Assembly: GCF_024298965.1 (NCBI RefSeq)
Contig: NZ_CP085193.1
Location: 10,230,001-10,294,000, forward strand
Direction of reading: 5' to 3'
Origin: Streptomyces rapamycinicus NRRL 5491
GTDB taxonomy: Bacteria; Actinomycetota; Actinomycetes; Streptomycetales; Streptomycetaceae
Length of the DNA stretch: 64,000 nt
The position numbers were made by a program, and so were the translations under genes. This document shows positions 27,506 through 40,422 of this stretch, one piece after another. Every line of letters begins with the position of its first letter. Position 1 is the stretch's first letter. The notes under the pieces are model-generated. The model did not search any database. It had not been told where the DNA came from and worked only from the letters and a program-made list of their open reading frames with translations.

Positions 27506-27568
27506 GACGGTAGCGCCGCCTCCGCATCTAATGCAAATCCTTAGCTTTTGGGTGCTCGGAGGAGGTGC

Positions 27569-33340: not shown

Positions 33341-34864
33341 TCAGCCCTGGCCCGGTTCGGGCAGGCCCGGACCGGCGCAGTGCACATCGGCCGCCGGAAC
33401 GGTCCCGTCGACCAGGTACGCGGCGGCGGCACCGTCCACGCAGGGGTTGCCCCGGCTGGCGAACACCCCGTGGGAGTAGTCCTGGTGGAGCGTCACCAGC
33501 CGCGAACCGGGCAGCCGGTGCCGGAGCCGGCGCGCGCCCTCGATGGGGGTGACGGGGTCGTGGTCGGAGGCGATCAGCAGGACGGGCGGGGCGCCGGGGC
33601 TGCCGAGCCGGGTGCGGTGGGCGGGCCGGTGGTGCCAGTAGGCGCAGGCGGACGCCTCGATACCGGTGAGGACCGGCCGCGGATCCAGCCGCCGTGTCCG
33701 GCGGATGTCGGCGGCCACCCGGCGGGGCGTGGGGGCGTGGCCGTCGGCGCACTTCACGATCCGGTTGGCGGCCTCGTAGTTGCGTGACTCCGGGCCGTCG
33801 AAGGGCTCGTCGGGGCGGAGGGCGCGGGTGTCGCCGTCGCGCAGGGAGGCGCGGAGGCCGTCGGCGAGGCCCGTCCAGCGTTCGGTGCGGCCGAGCGCGC
33901 GGTAGACGGCGCGGTCGAACCCGGCCGCGCCGAACCCGTCCACGGGATGGGCGGCTAGCCCCGCCCGCACCCGCAGATACGCCTCGCGCACCGCCTCGGG
34001 GCCGCCGCCGAGCCCGAACCGTCCCGCGTGCCGCGCCACCCAGCGGAAGAACACCTGGCGCTGGCGCAGCAGGGCCCGGGTCTGCCGCAGGTCGAAGTCG
34101 TACCACTCCCACGGGCCGACGACGCTGTCGAGCACCATGCGGGACACCCGGCGGGGGAAGTGGGCGGCGTAGGCGGCGCCGAGGTAACTGCCGTAGGAGA
34201 CACCGAGGAAGCCGGTGCGCCGCTCGCCGAGGGCCGCCCGAATGGCGTCCATGTCGTGGGCGGTCTGCTCCGTCGACAGATACGGCAGGGCGTCGGCCGC
34301 CCCCGCCGCGCAGTCGTCCGCCATGTGCCGCAGGGAGTCGAGGTGTGCGCGCTCCGCCCCGGGGCCGACCGGTACGGGATCGGCGCCCGGGGTGTCGAAG
34401 AGGCCGCCCATGCGGCCGCAGTCGGCGGGTGCGCTGTGGCCGACACCGCGCGGGTCGAAGCCGATGATGTCGTACGAACGCCGGACGCCCTCGGGGAGTT
34501 TGGCGCGCTTGGTGACGCCGTACGGCAGCCCCGATCCGCCGGGCCCGCCCGGGTTCACCAGGAGGATGCCGCGCCGCTCGGCGGGGGCCCCGGAGGCCCG
34601 TACCCGGGAGACGGCGATCCGGATGCGCTTGCCGTCCGGGTGGCTCCAGTCCAGCGGGACGGCGAGCGTGGCGCACTCGACGTGTTCCGGCGCGGGCGGG
34701 TCCGGTACGGAGTCCGGGCAGGCGCCGAAGCGAAGGGCCGGGGCCGGGGTCGGGCTCGGGTTCGGGGGAGCGGCGTGGGCGGGGGCGGGCGCGCCGGTGA
34801 GGAGGGTGGCGGCGCACGCCGTCAGGGCGCATGCCACCGAGGCGCGCCGTTGGGGGGAGGTCAT
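33341..34864 (-). CDS. Secreted alpha/beta hydrolase, tripeptidyl aminopeptidase (TAP) type
   Basis: 507 aa from ATG 34864. A Sec signal peptide (about 1-34: basic start, ACALTACAATLLTG, ending AHAAP) precedes the catalytic domain. Oxyanion motif LLVNPGGPGGSG (about 93-104), nucleophile elbow GVSYGSYLG, Asp region IASDHDPVTP and the catalytic His near HQDYSHGVFASRGNPC. These match the SlpD/SlpE and S. lividans Tap proteins, mycelium-associated exported peptidases. A Zur-like box lies 34 nt upstream, so the gene may share metal control with the divergent ATP-grasp cluster. Confidence 0.88.
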   Translation of the reverse strand: MTSPQRRASVACALTACAATLLTGAPAPAHAAPPNPSPTPAPALRFGACPDSVPDPPAPEHVECATLAVPLDWSHPDGKRIRIAVSRVRASGAPAERRGILLVNPGGPGGSGLPYGVTKRAKLPEGVRRSYDIIGFDPRGVGHSAPADCGRMGGLFDTPGADPVPVGPGAERAHLDSLRHMADDCAAGAADALPYLSTEQTAHDMDAIRAALGERRTGFLGVSYGSYLGAAYAAHFPRRVSRMVLDSVVGPWEWYDFDLRQTRALLRQRQVFFRWVARHAGRFGLGGGPEAVREAYLRVRAGLAAHPVDGFGAAGFDRAVYRALGRTERWTGLADGLRASLRDGDTRALRPDEPFDGPESRNYEAANRIVKCADGHAPTPRRVAADIRRTRRLDPRPVLTGIEASACAYWHHRPAHRTRLGSPGAPPVLLIASDHDPVTPIEGARRLRHRLPGSRLVTLHQDYSHGVFASRGNPCVDGAAAAYLVDGTVPAADVHCAGPGLPEPGQG

Positions 34865-34897
34865 GTGTCTCGCTCTCCTCGGACCATCAGATGACAA

Positions 34898-34912
34898 TGA
34901 AAACGATTATCG
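34898..34912. promoter_or_regulatory. Zur-like metal regulator box
   Basis: TGAAAACGATTATCG matches 12 of 15 positions of the Streptomyces Zur consensus TGAAAATGATTTTCA as I recall it, inside the AT-rich stretch 34891-34917. It lies in the divergent promoter between the exported peptidase and the ATP-grasp gene. A Fur-type site is the alternative reading. Confidence 0.5.
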
Positions 34913-35033
34913 ATTAGTGCGCGGTGGGCGGTCAAGGCGGGGACACCCGGCGGCGCCCTGTGCCCCGGCCTGCCCTGACCGCCAGCCCGACGACGAGGGT
35001 TTACCCCCAACCTGCCTACGATGAAGGAGAGTT

Positions 35034-36290
35034 GTGGCCCACCTGCTGATGGTCGAAAGCTGGGTCGGATCGATGAGCAGGCTGCTGCCACGGGCGATCC
35101 GCGAGGGTGGGCACGAGTTCACCTTCCTCACCCGCGACCTGCATCACTATCTGCGTTCGGCGCCCGAGGGCACCGCGCATCCGCTGCTCGCGGCCCGTCA
35201 TGTGCTGACCGCCGACACCAACGACGCCGACTCCCTGCTGCCGGTGGTGGAAGGGCTCCACGGCACACTGCGCTTCGACGGCGTCATCACCTCCTGCGAC
35301 TACTACCTGCCGACGGCCGCGCGTGTCGCCGGCCGGCTGGGGCTGCCCGGACCCTCCGCCGAAGCCGTGGAGAACGCCTGCCGCAAGGACGCCACCCGGC
35401 GCGCGCTCGAAGCCGCCGGGGTGGCCGGGCCGCGCTACGCGGTCTGCGCCGACTGGGCGCACACCGCCGGGGCGGCCCGCGACATCGGCTATCCGCTGGT
35501 GGTCAAGCCCGTGGACCTGTGCGCGGGGATGTACGTACGGCGGGTCGAGGACGAACGCGAACTGCTGGACGCCTACCGGGCGCTCGCCGACTTCCCCGTC
35601 AACGCCCGTGGCCAGCTCCGTTCCCCCACCGTGCTGCTCGAAGAGCTCCTCGACGGGCCGGAGGTCAGCGTCGAGACGGTGTCCTTCGGCGGTGCGGCCG
35701 AGGTGGTCGGGGTGACGGACAAGAGCGTCGGCGGGGCGCCCGCGTTCATCGAGACCGGGCACATGTTCCCGGCCGCGCTCGCCCCGGAGGACACCGAGGC
35801 GGCGTGCCGGACCGCGCTGCTCGCGCTGAAGGGGCTCGGCCTGGACGGTGTCGTGGCCCATACCGAGATCAAGCTGACCACCGCCGGGCCACGGGTGGTG
35901 GAGGTCAACCCCCGCCCCGCGGGCAACCGCATCACCGAACTGGTCCGCCATGTCACCGGGATCGACCTCGCGGCCGCCTGCGTGGACGTGGCGCTCGGGC
36001 AGCGGCCCGATCTGCGGCGGCGGGACACCGGGCTGCGCAGCGCCGCCATCGGCTTCCTGATACCGGACACCGCCGGAACACTGGTGTCGATCGAGGGCGG
36101 CGACGCGATGTGGGAGCAGCCGGACGTCCTCGAGGTGCGGTTCGCCGAGCCCGGCGAGCAGGTCACGGCGGCCGGCAGCAACAACGAATACCTCGGCCAT
36201 GTCATGGCGGCCGACGCGGCCGGGGCCGGGGCCCGCGCCCGCGTCGAGACCCTGCTGGCCGGGGTGCGCCCGCGGGTGGTGGCCGCATGA
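35034..36290 (+). CDS. ATP-grasp ligase
   Basis: 418 aa from GTG 35034 with GAAGGAGAG just before it. ATP-grasp fold: VVKPVDLCAGMYV (about 160-172), LLEELLDGPEVSVETV (about 203-218), and the metal-binding end VEVNPRPAGNRI (about 290-301). The family forms amide or related bonds by acyl-phosphate activation (amino-acid ligases, BacD-like). The stop overlaps the next start by 4 nt. First gene of a run with a DUF364-like protein, a PLP synthase and a peptide/nickel-type ABC transporter, which suggests it joins amino acids in making a small metallophore-like molecule (inference). Confidence 0.85.
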   Translation: MAHLLMVESWVGSMSRLLPRAIREGGHEFTFLTRDLHHYLRSAPEGTAHPLLAARHVLTADTNDADSLLPVVEGLHGTLRFDGVITSCDYYLPTAARVAGRLGLPGPSAEAVENACRKDATRRALEAAGVAGPRYAVCADWAHTAGAARDIGYPLVVKPVDLCAGMYVRRVEDERELLDAYRALADFPVNARGQLRSPTVLLEELLDGPEVSVETVSFGGAAEVVGVTDKSVGGAPAFIETGHMFPAALAPEDTEAACRTALLALKGLGLDGVVAHTEIKLTTAGPRVVEVNPRPAGNRITELVRHVTGIDLAAACVDVALGQRPDLRRRDTGLRSAAIGFLIPDTAGTLVSIEGGDAMWEQPDVLEVRFAEPGEQVTAAGSNNEYLGHVMAADAAGAGARARVETLLAGVRPRVVAA

Positions 36291-37111
36291 CGACGCGCAC
36301 CGGACGAGCCACCTCCTTCGAGGAGTTGCGCGGCCGGGTGCTGGCCGGGGCCCTCGGGCCCGATCCGCGCACCCTGCGGATCGCCGCGGCCTTCACCACC
36401 CGCCAGGCCGTACGCCACGCCGGGCGCGGCGGCGGCTACCGCAACGAGGTGCTCAGCCTGCGGCTGGCCGAGGCCGTCGGCTCGTGCGCCGTCGAGCCCG
36501 GCGCGCTGCCCGACGGCGCGATCGACGACTGCGTCGGCGCGGACGTGGCGGGGTTGCTGCGCCATGACCTGACGCCGGTCCGGGTCGCCGCCCTCGACGC
36601 GTATCTGACGCATGCGATGCCACACACCTCCCACCACGGGGCACGGCCGGTGGCCCTCGCGGCGGGCGACTCCCTCCAGAAGTCCCGTGCGCGCGCCGCG
36701 TCCGTCGCCGGGCTGCTGGACCTGGCGCCGGGCCGGACCGTCCTCGTCGTGGGAGTGGTCAACTCCCTTCTGGAAGCGCTGCGTTCGCGCGGACTGCGCT
36801 ATGTGCCGTGCGACCTCAAGGGCGGCGCCACGGAGTGGGACGAGCCGATCGCCACCGACGCGCTCGCGCGGCTGGCGGACTGCGACGCCGTGCTCGCCTC
36901 CGGTATGACGCTCGGCAACGGCACCTTCGAGCCGCTGCGCGAGCACGCCCTGCGCCACGGCAGGCAACTGGTGATGTTCGCCCAGACCGGGAGCGCGATC
37001 CTGCCGCGGCTGATCGGCGCCGGGGTCACCGCGGTGTGCGCCGAGCCCTACCCGTTCTTCTGGCTCGACGGCGGCCCCGGGACCATCCACTGTTACGGGG
37101 GCGCCCCATGA
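36287..37111 (+). CDS. DUF364 (putative heavy-metal chelation) Rossmann-like protein
   Basis: 274 aa. The second half carries VLVVGVVNSLLEAL (Rossmann-type strand-loop), CDAVLASGMTLGNGTFEPLL-like text and FAQTGSAILPRLIGAGVTAV, matching the DUF364 layout ('ATGSTLVNGT ... GPS.P..P.LF..G'). The N-terminal half resembles the companion DUF4213. The biochemical role is not established; the Pfam name 'putative heavy-metal chelation' reflects structural inference. Start overlaps the ATP-grasp stop (ATGA) and its stop overlaps the PLP gene start (ATGA), so the three are translated together. Confidence 0.72.
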   Translation: MTTRTGRATSFEELRGRVLAGALGPDPRTLRIAAAFTTRQAVRHAGRGGGYRNEVLSLRLAEAVGSCAVEPGALPDGAIDDCVGADVAGLLRHDLTPVRVAALDAYLTHAMPHTSHHGARPVALAAGDSLQKSRARAASVAGLLDLAPGRTVLVVGVVNSLLEALRSRGLRYVPCDLKGGATEWDEPIATDALARLADCDAVLASGMTLGNGTFEPLREHALRHGRQLVMFAQTGSAILPRLIGAGVTAVCAEPYPFFWLDGGPGTIHCYGGAP

Positions 37112-38457
37112 CCCCGGCCCTCCACCGCGCCCCCGCGGGCGGCGACCTCCTCGCCCTGCTCGGCCGTACCCCGCTCGCCCGGATCACCACCGACCTGCCC
37201 TGCCCCCACCCCGGCTTCTGGGCCAAACTCGAAGGGCTCGGCGCCGGCGGGATGAAGGCCCGCGCCGCCGTGTCCATGGTGCTCGGCGCCCGGGAACGCG
37301 GCGAACTGCGCCCCGGCGCCCCGGTGGTGGAATCCACCTCCGGCACCCTCGGCATCGGCCTCGCCTTCGCGGGCCAGGCGCTGGGCCACCCCATCGTGCT
37401 GGTCTGCGACACCGAGCTGGAACCGTCGATGCGGCGGTTGCTGCGCACCTACGGCGTCCGCCTGGAGCTCGTGGACCGCCCGGCGGCCGAGGGCGGTTGG
37501 CAGGCGGCCCGCCTGGCGCGGCTGCGCGAGATGCTGGCACTGCTGCCGGACGCCTACTGGCCCGATCAGTACAACAACCCCGACAACACCACCGGTTACG
37601 CCTCACTCGCCGCCGAACTGACCACCCAGCTCGACCATCTCGACATCCTGGTGTGCAGCGTCGGCACCGGTGGCCACAGCGCCGGCCTCATCCGGCCGCT
37701 GCGCGAGCACTGGCCAGGGCTGCGGCTCATCGGGGTCGACGCCACCGGGTCCACCATCTTCGGCCAGCCCGCGCGGCCCCGGCACGCGTATCTGGTGGCG
37801 CTGCCGATCGGGCTCACCGCCGCGCTCACCCACCGGGGCTGGCTGGAGGAACTGCTCATCCGCCCCCTGGACATCCTGCTCGCCGTGCCGTCGCTGCTGC
37901 TGATCCTGCTGGTCGCCACCGTCTTCACCCCGGGCACGGCGGGTCTGGCGCTGCTGGTGGCGCTCGCCAACATCCCGGACGCCGCCCGGCTGGTGCGCGC
38001 CGCGGCCGCCGAGGCCGCCTCGCGCCCGGCGGTCGAGGCGATGCGGCTGCAGGGCGAGACCTGGTGGCGGATGGGGGTCGGCTACGTCGGACGGTCCATG
38101 CTGCGCACCCTGGCCGCCGACGCCGGAATCCGGCTCACCGGTGTGCTCTACCTGGTGGCCACCGCGGCCTTTCTGGGCGTCGGCGTGGCGCCGGACGCCG
38201 CGGACTGGGCGGTGATGGTGGACCGCAACCGCACCGGGCTGTTCGTCCAGCCCTGGGCGGTCGTCGTGCCCGCGCTGCTGATCGTCGCGCTGACCACGGG
38301 CAGCAATCTGCTGTTCGACGCGGCGCTGGAGGACGGCGGGCGCACGGAGAAGAAGAACGGGCGCACCGAGAGGAAGAACGGGCGCACCGAGAGGAAGAAC
38401 GGGCGCACCGAGAGGAAGAACGGGCGTACCGAGAGGGAGAAGGGGAAGCGGACGTGA
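37108..38457 (+). CDS. Chimera: SbnA/cysteine-synthase-like PLP enzyme fused to end of DppC/NikC-type permease
   Basis: 449 aa. Residues 1 to about 224 are a fold-type II PLP enzyme: GGMKARAAVSM with predicted PLP-Lys50, STSGTLGIGLAFAG substrate loop, GTGGHSAG phosphate loop (about 187-194), IGVDATGSTIFGQP. From about 227 on, it is the membrane C-terminal two-thirds of an oligopeptide/nickel ABC permease: LLIRPLDILLAVPSLLLILL, the EAA-like AAAEAASRPAVEAMRLQG, then three helices. The PLP C-terminal ~90 residues and the permease N-terminus are missing. An in-frame deletion at about 37770-37795 is the best explanation; probably neither half works normally. The tail is five 7-residue repeats (GRTERKN). 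Confidence 0.82.
   Translation: MTPALHRAPAGGDLLALLGRTPLARITTDLPCPHPGFWAKLEGLGAGGMKARAAVSMVLGARERGELRPGAPVVESTSGTLGIGLAFAGQALGHPIVLVCDTELEPSMRRLLRTYGVRLELVDRPAAEGGWQAARLARLREMLALLPDAYWPDQYNNPDNTTGYASLAAELTTQLDHLDILVCSVGTGGHSAGLIRPLREHWPGLRLIGVDATGSTIFGQPARPRHAYLVALPIGLTAALTHRGWLEELLIRPLDILLAVPSLLLILLVATVFTPGTAGLALLVALANIPDAARLVRAAAAEAASRPAVEAMRLQGETWWRMGVGYVGRSMLRTLAADAGIRLTGVLYLVATAAFLGVGVAPDAADWAVMVDRNRTGLFVQPWAVVVPALLIVALTTGSNLLFDAALEDGGRTEKKNGRTERKNGRTERKNGRTERKNGRTEREKGKRT
38338..38442. repeat. Five 21-bp tandem repeats at the 3' end of the chimera
   Basis: Units start at 38338, 38359, 38380, 38401 and 38422. The middle three are identical (gggcgcaccgagaggaagaa + c) and the outer two have a few changes. 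They encode GRTERKN repeats, a charged, hydrophilic tail after the last membrane helix, just before the overlapping ABC ATPase start. Confidence 0.95.
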
Positions 38458-40010
38458 ACGCGGTCGCCGAGATCAAGGACCTGCGCGTGGAGATCGACGG
38501 CCGGGCCGTGGTCGACGACGTGAGCCTCAGCGTGGAGCCCGGACAGATCACCGCGCTGGTGGGCCCGTCCGGCAGCGGCAAGACGACCACCGGGCTGGCG
38601 CTGCTCGGCGAGTACCCGCCGGGGGCCCGGGTGACGGGTCACGTACGCGTGGCCGAGGGGCTGGTCGGCTATGTCCCGCAGCATCCGGCCGCGGTCCTCA
38701 ACCCGGCGCGCCGGATCGGCGCGCTCCTCCACGACATAGCCCGCCGACAGGTGCGCCATCCGCGGCGCTCCGAGCGCCGCGCCGAGGCCCGCGAACGGGT
38801 TCTCGCCGCCCTGGCACAGGCCCAACTGCCTGATCCGGCAGCCCTGTTGCGCCGCTATCCGCATCAGCTGTCCGGCGGTCAGCAGCAGCGCGTCGTCCTC
38901 GCGCAGGCGCTGCTGCTGGGCGCGCGGGTCGTGGTCGCGGACGAACCGACCACGGGGCAGGACGCGCTCACCAAACGCCGTGTCGTGGAGCGGCTGTCCG
39001 CGGTCGCCGAACGCGGTATCGCCGTCGTACTCCTCAGCCATGACCTGGACGTGGTGCGGGCGCTCGCCGACGAGGTCGTGGTGGTGCGCGCGGGCCGGGT
39101 GGTGGAGTCGGCCCCCACCGGGCGGCTGTGGACGGCGCCGGCACACCCCTGGACCCGTACGCTCCTCGCCGCACAGCCAACCACACCGGCCGGTACCCCG
39201 CCGGGCGATGTACCACGCGACGAGCGGCAGGCCGGGGAGGCGACACCCGGACCGGGGGCGCGCGGGCTGCGGGTGCGCGGGCTGGCCGCACGCCACGGCG
39301 CCACCACCGTGCTGCGCACCGCCGAACTCACCGTCCGTTCCGGCACCTGCCTGGCCGTCGTCGGCCGGTCGGCCAGTGGCAAGACCACGCTCGCCCGGTG
39401 CCTGGCCGGACTCCACCGCGACCACGACGGAGAGGTGCTGCTCGACGGCGCCCCGCTGCCCCGCAGCCTGCGCTCCCGCACCCGGGGGCAACTCGCCGCC
39501 GTGCAGTACGTCTTCCAGGACGCGCGGGCCGCCTTCGACGAACACCGGCCGGTCCTGGACCAGGTGGCGCGCACGGCGTCACGGCTGCGAGGAGCCGCCC
39601 CGGCGACGGCGCGGACCGAGGCGGAGGCGACCCTGAACGGTCTCGGACTCGCGCCCGACCTCGTACGGCGCCTCCCGGGGCGGCTGTCGGGCGGCGAGCT
39701 GCAGCGTGCCGCCCTCGCCCGCGCCCTGCTCGCCCGGCCCCGGGTGCTCGTGTGCGACGAGGTCACCTCCGGCCTGGACCCGATCACCCGCCGGGACATC
39801 CTCGACCGCCTCGTCGCCCTGCCCCGCGACCACACCGACCTGGCCCTGATCCTCATCACCCACGACCTGGACGCGGCGGCCCTGGCCACCCGCATCGCCG
39901 TCCTGGAGGCGGGCGAACTGATCGAGCAGGGCCCGGCCCACCAGGTGCTGACCGCGCCGAGCCACCCGTTCACGGCCGAGCTGACGCGCGCCTGGCCGGC
40001 CCTCGCATGA
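38454..40010 (+). CDS. Double ABC ATPase, DppD-DppF/NikDE fusion type
   Basis: 518 aa from GTG 38454, overlapping the chimera stop by 4 nt. Two complete ATPase domains. The first has Walker A GPSGSGKTT (about 37-45), signature LSGGQQQR (about 140) and Walker B VVVADEPTTGQD. The second has Walker A GRSASGKTT (about 306-314), signature LSGGELQR (about 408) and Walker B VLVCDEVTSGLD. The peptide/nickel subfamily is recognised by the preserved spacing and the HPWTRTLLAAQP and HPFTAELTRAWP ends. It would drive the (now broken) two-permease importer. Confidence 0.92.
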   Translation: MNAVAEIKDLRVEIDGRAVVDDVSLSVEPGQITALVGPSGSGKTTTGLALLGEYPPGARVTGHVRVAEGLVGYVPQHPAAVLNPARRIGALLHDIARRQVRHPRRSERRAEARERVLAALAQAQLPDPAALLRRYPHQLSGGQQQRVVLAQALLLGARVVVADEPTTGQDALTKRRVVERLSAVAERGIAVVLLSHDLDVVRALADEVVVVRAGRVVESAPTGRLWTAPAHPWTRTLLAAQPTTPAGTPPGDVPRDERQAGEATPGPGARGLRVRGLAARHGATTVLRTAELTVRSGTCLAVVGRSASGKTTLARCLAGLHRDHDGEVLLDGAPLPRSLRSRTRGQLAAVQYVFQDARAAFDEHRPVLDQVARTASRLRGAAPATARTEAEATLNGLGLAPDLVRRLPGRLSGGELQRAALARALLARPRVLVCDEVTSGLDPITRRDILDRLVALPRDHTDLALILITHDLDAAALATRIAVLEAGELIEQGPAHQVLTAPSHPFTAELTRAWPALA

Positions 40011-40023
40011 TTACGCTGCATCC

Positions 40024-40422
40024 ATGAGTGAGCTGATCAGGATCCCCGCCCCGGACGGGGTCGCGCCCGCCGCCCAGTACTCCCATGTCGTCCAGGGCAC
40101 CGGGCACTTCGTGGCAGTCTCCGGCCAGATCGCCCTGGACGAGGCGGGCGACATCGTCGGCGAGGGCGACCCGGCGGCCCAGGCCCGTCAGGTCTTCGAG
40201 AATCTGCGGCGCTGCCTCGCCGCCGCCGGTGCCACCTTCGACGATGTGATCAAACTGACGTACTTCGTCACGGACATGGCCCATATGCCGGCCATCCGCG
40301 AAGCCCGCGCCGCCCGCATACCCGACGACCGGCTGCCCGCCGCCTCGGCGGTGCAGGTCGTCTCGCTGGCGCGGCCGGAGTTCCTGATGGAGATCGAGGC
40401 ATTCGCGGTGGTGGCCGGGTAA
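40024..40422 (+). CDS. ridA: RidA/YjgF-family enamine/imine deaminase
   Basis: 132 aa, full length for the family. VSGQIALDEAGDIVGEGDPAAQARQVFENL (shown in parts: VSGQIALD, GDPAAQARQVFENL), KLTYFVTDMAH and a C-terminal MEIEAFAVV are typical. RidA hydrolyses reactive 2-aminoacrylate-type enamines released by PLP enzymes. It starts 13 nt after the double ATPase, so it is likely co-transcribed with the PLP enzyme cluster. Whether it serves that enzyme specifically is inference. The family-conserved Arg near the C-terminus aligns with ARPEFLMEIE. Confidence 0.9.
   Translation: MSELIRIPAPDGVAPAAQYSHVVQGTGHFVAVSGQIALDEAGDIVGEGDPAAQARQVFENLRRCLAAAGATFDDVIKLTYFVTDMAHMPAIREARAARIPDDRLPAASAVQVVSLARPEFLMEIEAFAVVAG

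Follow-up and report, generated by a model that had tools for sequence, protein, structure and literature searches.

Actinobacterial metallophore genes that operate without a non-ribosomal peptide synthetase (NRPS) are represented by the aes genes of Amycolatopsis japonicum, which make [S,S]-EDDS (ethylenediaminedisuccinic acid), and by the "aminopolycarboxylic acid metallophores" category of antiSMASH 7; as far as the available text of the sources describes them, such genes were found by way of Zur sites and are repressed by zinc through Zur (PMC13379591, PMC9252823). A Nocardia aminopolycarboxylic acid cluster is reported to be under the iron regulator DmdR1 in the accessible part of its description (PMC10920908), so clusters of this kind need not respond to zinc. 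Coelibactin of S. coelicolor is described as the product of a Zur-linked zincophore cluster (PMC12161575, in part), and the opine-like zincophores staphylopine, pseudopaline and bacillopaline are described as small amino-acid-derived chelators served by major facilitator superfamily (MFS) exporters and Opp or FecCD importers (PMC7438024, in part). The gene cluster analysed here occupies positions 34,865 to 40,422 of a 64,000-nucleotide stretch, henceforth referred to as the window, of Streptomyces rapamycinicus NRRL 5491 (contig NZ_CP085193.1, positions 10,230,001 to 10,294,000, forward strand). It is the deletion-broken remnant of what was likely a Zur-repressed zincophore operon of neither the NRPS nor the opine type, intact ancestrally and dead in this strain.

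The likeness of this cluster to aes rests on reported regulation and not on gene content. Coelibactin is likewise linked to Zur in Streptomyces but is made by an NRPS, whereas the present cluster has no NRPS gene. The cluster shares an MFS exporter and an Opp-type importer with the opine-like systems but differs from them in that no NCBIfam or Pfam match to a CntL-type nicotianamine synthase or a CntM-type opine dehydrogenase was obtained among the cluster proteins scanned (the NCBIfam scan covered those other than permease B, intact permease C and the MFS protein). SbnA of staphyloferrin B biosynthesis (PDB 5d84-5d87) is the best solved and NCBIfam relative of the pyridoxal phosphate (PLP) enzyme of the cluster; unlike the staphyloferrin B pathway, the ten genes of the intact cluster include neither an SbnB partner nor a citrate-type siderophore synthetase. 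The solved DUF364 structures, 3l5o and 3npg, are about 15% identical to the cluster DUF364 protein, and the reaction is not known for any of them.

The genes and the Zur-like box reported in a preliminary description of this DNA, made from the sequence alone, are present as described. The ATP-grasp ligase, DUF364 protein, SbnA-like PLP enzyme, permease end, double ATPase and RidA gene were all recovered by translation, Pfam and NCBIfam, with the following coordinates:

33344..34864, minus strand: secreted-type alpha/beta hydrolase (TAP-like), an optional divergent neighbour, by translation
34895..34915, plus strand: Zur-like box CAATGAAAACGATTATCGATT in the divergent promoter, by motif score, footprint and likeness to the strain's own znuA site
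35034..36290, plus strand: ATP-grasp ligase, L-amino acid ligase-like, by Pfam (ATP-grasp_4, LAL_C2) and the PDB match of an orthologue
36287..37111, plus strand: DUF364 protein, by Pfam and translation
37108..37782, plus strand: SbnA-like PLP enzyme, N-terminal 225 residues (363 residues in S. iranensis)
37782..37783, plus strand: deletion junction with two shared bases, by BLASTN against S. iranensis (locus L009); 6,473 bp absent here
37783..38457, plus strand: NikC/OppC-type permease, C-terminal half, in-frame fusion (BPD_transp_1 at residues 231-404 of the fused frame)
38337..38445, plus strand: 21-bp tandem repeat, 5.2 copies, in the permease tail
38454..40010, plus strand: double ATP-binding cassette (ABC) ATPase, NikD/NikE-like, by Pfam and NCBIfam
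40024..40422, plus strand: RidA-family protein (PF01042), a neighbour and not a cluster member

The frames from the ligase through the ATPase share four-base overlaps at 36287, 37108 and 38454, as the preliminary description had stated, which points to an operon-like arrangement.

The PLP and permease pieces lie in a single open frame (37108-38457, 449 codons), whose product resembles SbnA as far as residue 225 and NikC/OppC from around residue 228 onwards. When compared by BLASTN with the S. iranensis locus, this region aligned in two blocks, 95.8% and 94.5% identical, which meet at window positions 37782-37783. The same two blocks are separated by 6,473 bp in S. iranensis, with two bases common at the join. 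A 601-bp piece spanning the junction was compared with 60 relatives; among the matches listed, none from another genome extends across the junction for more than 16 bases, and in several relatives its halves lie 6-8 kb apart. None of the 120 protein database matches listed, out of 3,015, covers the fusion (best cover 46-52%), a weak indication, as near-identical genome records may be left out of that count. Five genes, encoding the epimerase, MFS protein, methyltransferase, substrate-binding protein (SBP) and permease B, have been lost whole. The PLP enzyme has lost 138 of its 363 residues, among them the GGWSTGA segment, and permease C has lost its first part. PLP lysine 50 is kept in the window, and with the C-terminal 138 residues deleted the catalytic domain is not full-length. 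With five entire genes and parts of another two removed by the deletion of about 6.5 kb, both synthesis and uptake are disabled, and the pathway cannot run in this strain. The 21-bp repeat at the permease C-terminus (38337-38445) has fewer units and a shorter tail in S. iranensis, and S. samsunensis has a different tail.

Ka/Ks ratios between the window and S. iranensis were 0.51 for the ATP-grasp gene and 0.36 for the DUF364 gene, and those between S. iranensis and S. samsunensis were 0.32 and 0.21. These values do not speak for relaxed selection in the leftover genes, as Ka/Ks of the divergent hydrolase rises likewise (0.51 vs 0.33).

The intact gene order, for which a search in other Streptomyces genomes had been proposed, was found in relatives. 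A scan of named genomes returned 292 stretches encoding a DUF364 relative; the best 80 of the 292, together with four plasmid loci, were kept as 84 loci of the form referred to as type A. Gene order was counted at the 75 of these with enough flank. All ten genes, namely ATP-grasp ligase, DUF364, SbnA-like enzyme, dipeptide epimerase, MFS, methyltransferase, SBP, permease B, permease C and double ATPase, lie in this order on one strand at 73 of the 75. The exceptions are an Embleya plasmid, which lacks the methyltransferase and SBP genes and has a cut ATP-grasp gene, and one Streptomyces locus lacking six genes. Among the 73, loci L022, L026 and L030 have at least one gene whose best match covers less than 60% (the ATPase gene is not included in this count), and their cluster genes may be damaged, broken or frameshifted. 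Besides the window, L003 and L051 hold decayed copies of the cluster, with different genes missing. The same ten genes occur in the same order on a Rhodococcus plasmid at 43-60% identity, and two loci from other families (L178, L179) agree with this arrangement.

The divergent alpha/beta hydrolase was found at 41 of the 74 loci with enough upstream flank, and its orthologue at locus L002 matches Abhydrolase_1 and the TAP-like Abhydrolase_4. RidA, which the preliminary description had counted as part of the cluster, proved to be a neighbour only: it adjoins the cluster at none of the 31 loci whose sequence extends at least 700 bp past the ATPase gene, far enough to show it, and among the relatives S. 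iranensis alone has RidA there. A role for RidA as a pathway enzyme clearing 2-aminoacrylate was ruled out on the same count.

The Zur-like box was confirmed at 34898-34912, where TGAAAACGATTATCG matches 12 of the 15 positions of the consensus TGAAAATGATTTTCA. It is the sole site with three or fewer mismatches to TGAAAATGATTTTCA on both strands of the 64 kb, against 0.01 expected. The box at 34895-34915 also matches 12 of the 15 informative positions of the 21-bp actinobacterial znuA motif, which is quoted, as is the S. coelicolor chromatin immunoprecipitation (ChIP) motif tGaNNatSatNNtCa, in the available text of PMC5472717. Two mismatches to the ChIP motif make it a fair rather than a perfect Zur-like box.

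Conservation of the box was assessed in 82 upstream sequences, comprising the window and 81 type A loci (three of the 84 had no usable start). The 21-bp motif scored at least 11 of 15 upstream of all 82 operons and at least 12 in 80 of them, while 0.3% of 1,640 shuffled controls reached 11. The column profile of the 79 sequences with flanks gave 1.60 bits per column inside the box vs 0.23 and 0.38 outside. Because the upstream sequences are related, this conserved footprint is stronger evidence than the hit count. Scores of at least 12 occur at 84 positions in the 1.59 Mb of type A loci, and 79 of the 81 promoters tested there reach 12. The conserved block opens with TGA, six bases to the left of the core, and two overlapping dimers are possible at the box.

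Across the 12.47 Mb genome, TGANAACSRTTNTCR has two sites, the window box and one close to where another frame (L008) begins, and TGANAANNNTTNTCR has two additional sites, beside unrelated frames. The consensus TGAAAATGATTTTCA with two mismatches gave zero sites in the genome, and the ChIP motif with one mismatch was discarded as too loose (148 genome sites vs 29 for the reversed control). Outside the cluster, window positions 27529-27549 carry a weak 11/15 match to the 21-bp motif, so a match at just 11 positions carries little weight by itself.

The genome encodes a plausible regulator for this box. Its one znuA gene is adjoined by znu-like genes and a FUR-family gene (L183), whose product scores about 263 bits against S. 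coelicolor Zur (3mwm, 7vo0). The znuA promoter carries TGGAAACGATTGTCA, which is identical to the window box at 12 of 15 positions. Together these features suggest that the cluster was Zur-repressed.

The preliminary description had related the PLP enzyme to SbnA, and SbnA is indeed the best PDB and the best NCBIfam relative of the intact orthologue; the name itself is not justified, as the weighing of scores below makes clear. The best PDB match of the ligase orthologue is the L-amino acid ligase BL00235 (3vot). The top PDB match of the epimerase is named muconate cycloisomerase and the next dipeptide epimerase, and its best NCBIfam match is the N-acetyl-D-Glu racemase DgcA. The DUF364 protein (PF04016) reaches the Pfam gathering score and has the two-domain fold; its predicted model (predicted local distance difference test, pLDDT, 92.5) shows the known DUF364 fold. 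For this fold, a condensation or hydrolysis in the making of flavins, pterins or siderophores has been proposed in the accessible part of PMC2954201. The ATPase scored 281 bits against the NikD cut-off of 319, 257 against 333 for NikE, 273 against 380 for CntD and 278 against 385 for CntF, and the best NCBIfam match of the SBP is Opp5A_nikA, at 143 bits against a cut-off of 600.

A sister family, type B, has DUF364 proteins 40-46% identical to those of type A. Among 295 Streptomyces genomes, 123 have a DUF364 match: 69 have type A (E ≤ 1e-117), 55 have type B, two of these have both, and one has a weak match. If the forms were independent, 12.9 genomes would be expected to have both (P = 2e-5, a value uncorrected for kinship). 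Of 394 genomes of the class, 39 have a DUF364 match, nine of them only near the threshold. Thirteen type B loci were sampled (L005, L006, L170-L177 and L180-L182; 11 chosen from the genus and class samples and two of three plasmid matches). All 13 combine DUF364 with a distant SbnA-like enzyme and an MFS gene; a methyltransferase is present in ten and a GHMP kinase, which could be a source of O-phosphoserine, in eight, with two more having a gene that resembles the kinase by eye. FecBCD importers accompany nine loci and an Opp-type importer one (L170), and three have none in the stretch seen. The L170 importer is 46-53% identical to that of type A, which suggests that L170 is a hybrid of type B biosynthesis with a type A-like Opp importer and that importers have been exchanged between the forms.

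A Zur-like site scoring at least 11 was found in 13 of 13 type B loci, several of the sites being near-palindromic. The 12 control loci, which carry other SbnA-like genes, have none; an MFS gene accompanies nine of these, a kinase and an ATP-grasp gene another two, and the last is of a different make-up. The site thus accompanies DUF364 and not SbnA-like genes as such. Nine loci of other Streptomyces (L104, L105, L107-L112 and L114) have an SbnA-like gene (51-59%) adjoining an MFS gene and no Zur-like site. Near one chromosome end of the strain's own genome (C1, about 23.8-26.9 kb), locus L103 holds a second SbnA-like gene (40%) together with genes of the ATP-grasp (38%) and GHMP-kinase-like (34%) kinds, with no Zur-like site of at least 11 in 15 kb.

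The preliminary description had proposed a non-NRPS zincophore or nickelophore pathway with its uptake system. For the intact ancestral cluster this is likely, given the box at 82 of 82 operons, the nature of the genes found in relatives and missing here (epimerase, exporter, methyltransferase, SBP and permeases) and the sister family, in which DUF364 and SbnA-like genes are combined, under Zur-like sites, with FecBCD or Opp importers; the proposal fails for this strain, where about 6.5 kb is gone. In the predicted pathway, whose product, metal, Zur binding, chemical steps and direction of transport we infer, zinc starvation would release Zur from the promoter of the intact operon. The SbnA-like enzyme would use a serine derivative (probably O-phosphoserine) to equip an amino acid with an aminocarboxyethyl or diaminopropionate unit, and the ATP-grasp ligase would form an amide bond between that product and a second amino acid. 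The enolase-superfamily epimerase would invert one centre, and the methyltransferase and DUF364 protein would complete the chelator. The MFS pump would then export it, and the SBP, two permeases and double ATPase would re-import the metal complex.

Several observations weigh against this scheme. The genome encodes three further FUR-family proteins, four in all, and the window box departs from the S. coelicolor ChIP motif at two positions, which makes Zur a presumed regulator. The intact PLP orthologue (L002) scores 240.4 bits against the SbnA (TIGR03945) cut-off of 349.95, and should not be called SbnA on that score; in the GTGG/STTG loop, moreover, it carries a G in place of the S of SbnA. 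The transport proteins fall under all nickel and staphylopine (Nik, Cnt) cut-offs and so do not fix the metal. No decarboxylase, NRPS or opine dehydrogenase accounts for the chelating groups. Finally, an assembly error at the junction may be the source of the apparent deletion.

The strongest alternative, though an unlikely one, is that the metallophore of the intact operon serves a different metal (nickel, cobalt or copper) or several metals, with Zur or another FUR-family protein in control. The Nik/Opp-like importer, with NikD at 281 bits and Opp5A_nikA as the best match of the SBP, and the four FUR-family proteins favor this explanation; however, every Nik match lies below its cut-off, and the box fits both the zinc-uptake motif and the strain's own znuA box. 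Slightly less probable again is a zinc-starvation operon that makes a dipeptide-like antimetabolite or signal instead of a chelator, with the peptide importer serving recovery. The L-amino acid ligase-like and dipeptide epimerase-like enzymes and the Opp-type importer would suit such a product, but the sister family links the same DUF364/SbnA-like core to FecBCD siderophore-type importers at nine of 13 loci. It is very improbable that the PLP-permease fusion functions as a protein and has taken on a new role here. Its frame is uninterrupted over 449 codons and the surviving pieces have changed little (PLP part 98% and permease part 98% identical to S. iranensis), but such conservation is equally expected after a recent deletion, the PLP part has lost the 138 residues that include the GGWSTGA segment, and neither permease B nor the SBP is left, the top SBP match in the rest of the genome being 36% identical. 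Ordinary cysteine or peptide metabolism with a chance box, suggested by the cysteine synthase annotation of the PLP genes in public records, is the least credible explanation given the conserved box footprint and the patchy presence of the cluster (69 of 295 genomes of the genus).

A Zur-repressed zincophore operon therefore remains the preferred reading of the intact cluster. No published description of this cluster was found in the literature searched, a search that had preprints and most subscription journals outside it, so novelty is unproven. We tentatively propose, at somewhat short of even confidence, that the cluster represents an undescribed class of actinobacterial zincophore built on a DUF364/SbnA-like core and existing in two forms, type A with a ligase-epimerase pair and Opp import, and type B with a methyltransferase, often a GHMP kinase, and mostly FecBCD import. 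One form or the other is present in 122 of the 295 sampled Streptomyces genomes (about two in five) and both in only two, and S. rapamycinicus would be an ex-producer in which a single deletion abolished both production and uptake. The proposal lends itself to direct testing, given the clear box, the fixed order of the ten genes and complete relatives such as S. iranensis and S. angustmyceticus. If it is true, a large share of Streptomyces would acquire zinc through a never-isolated chelator, without NRPS or opine chemistry, and DUF364, a family whose fold was solved in 2010 and which has no known reaction, would gain a pathway in which its function could be found.

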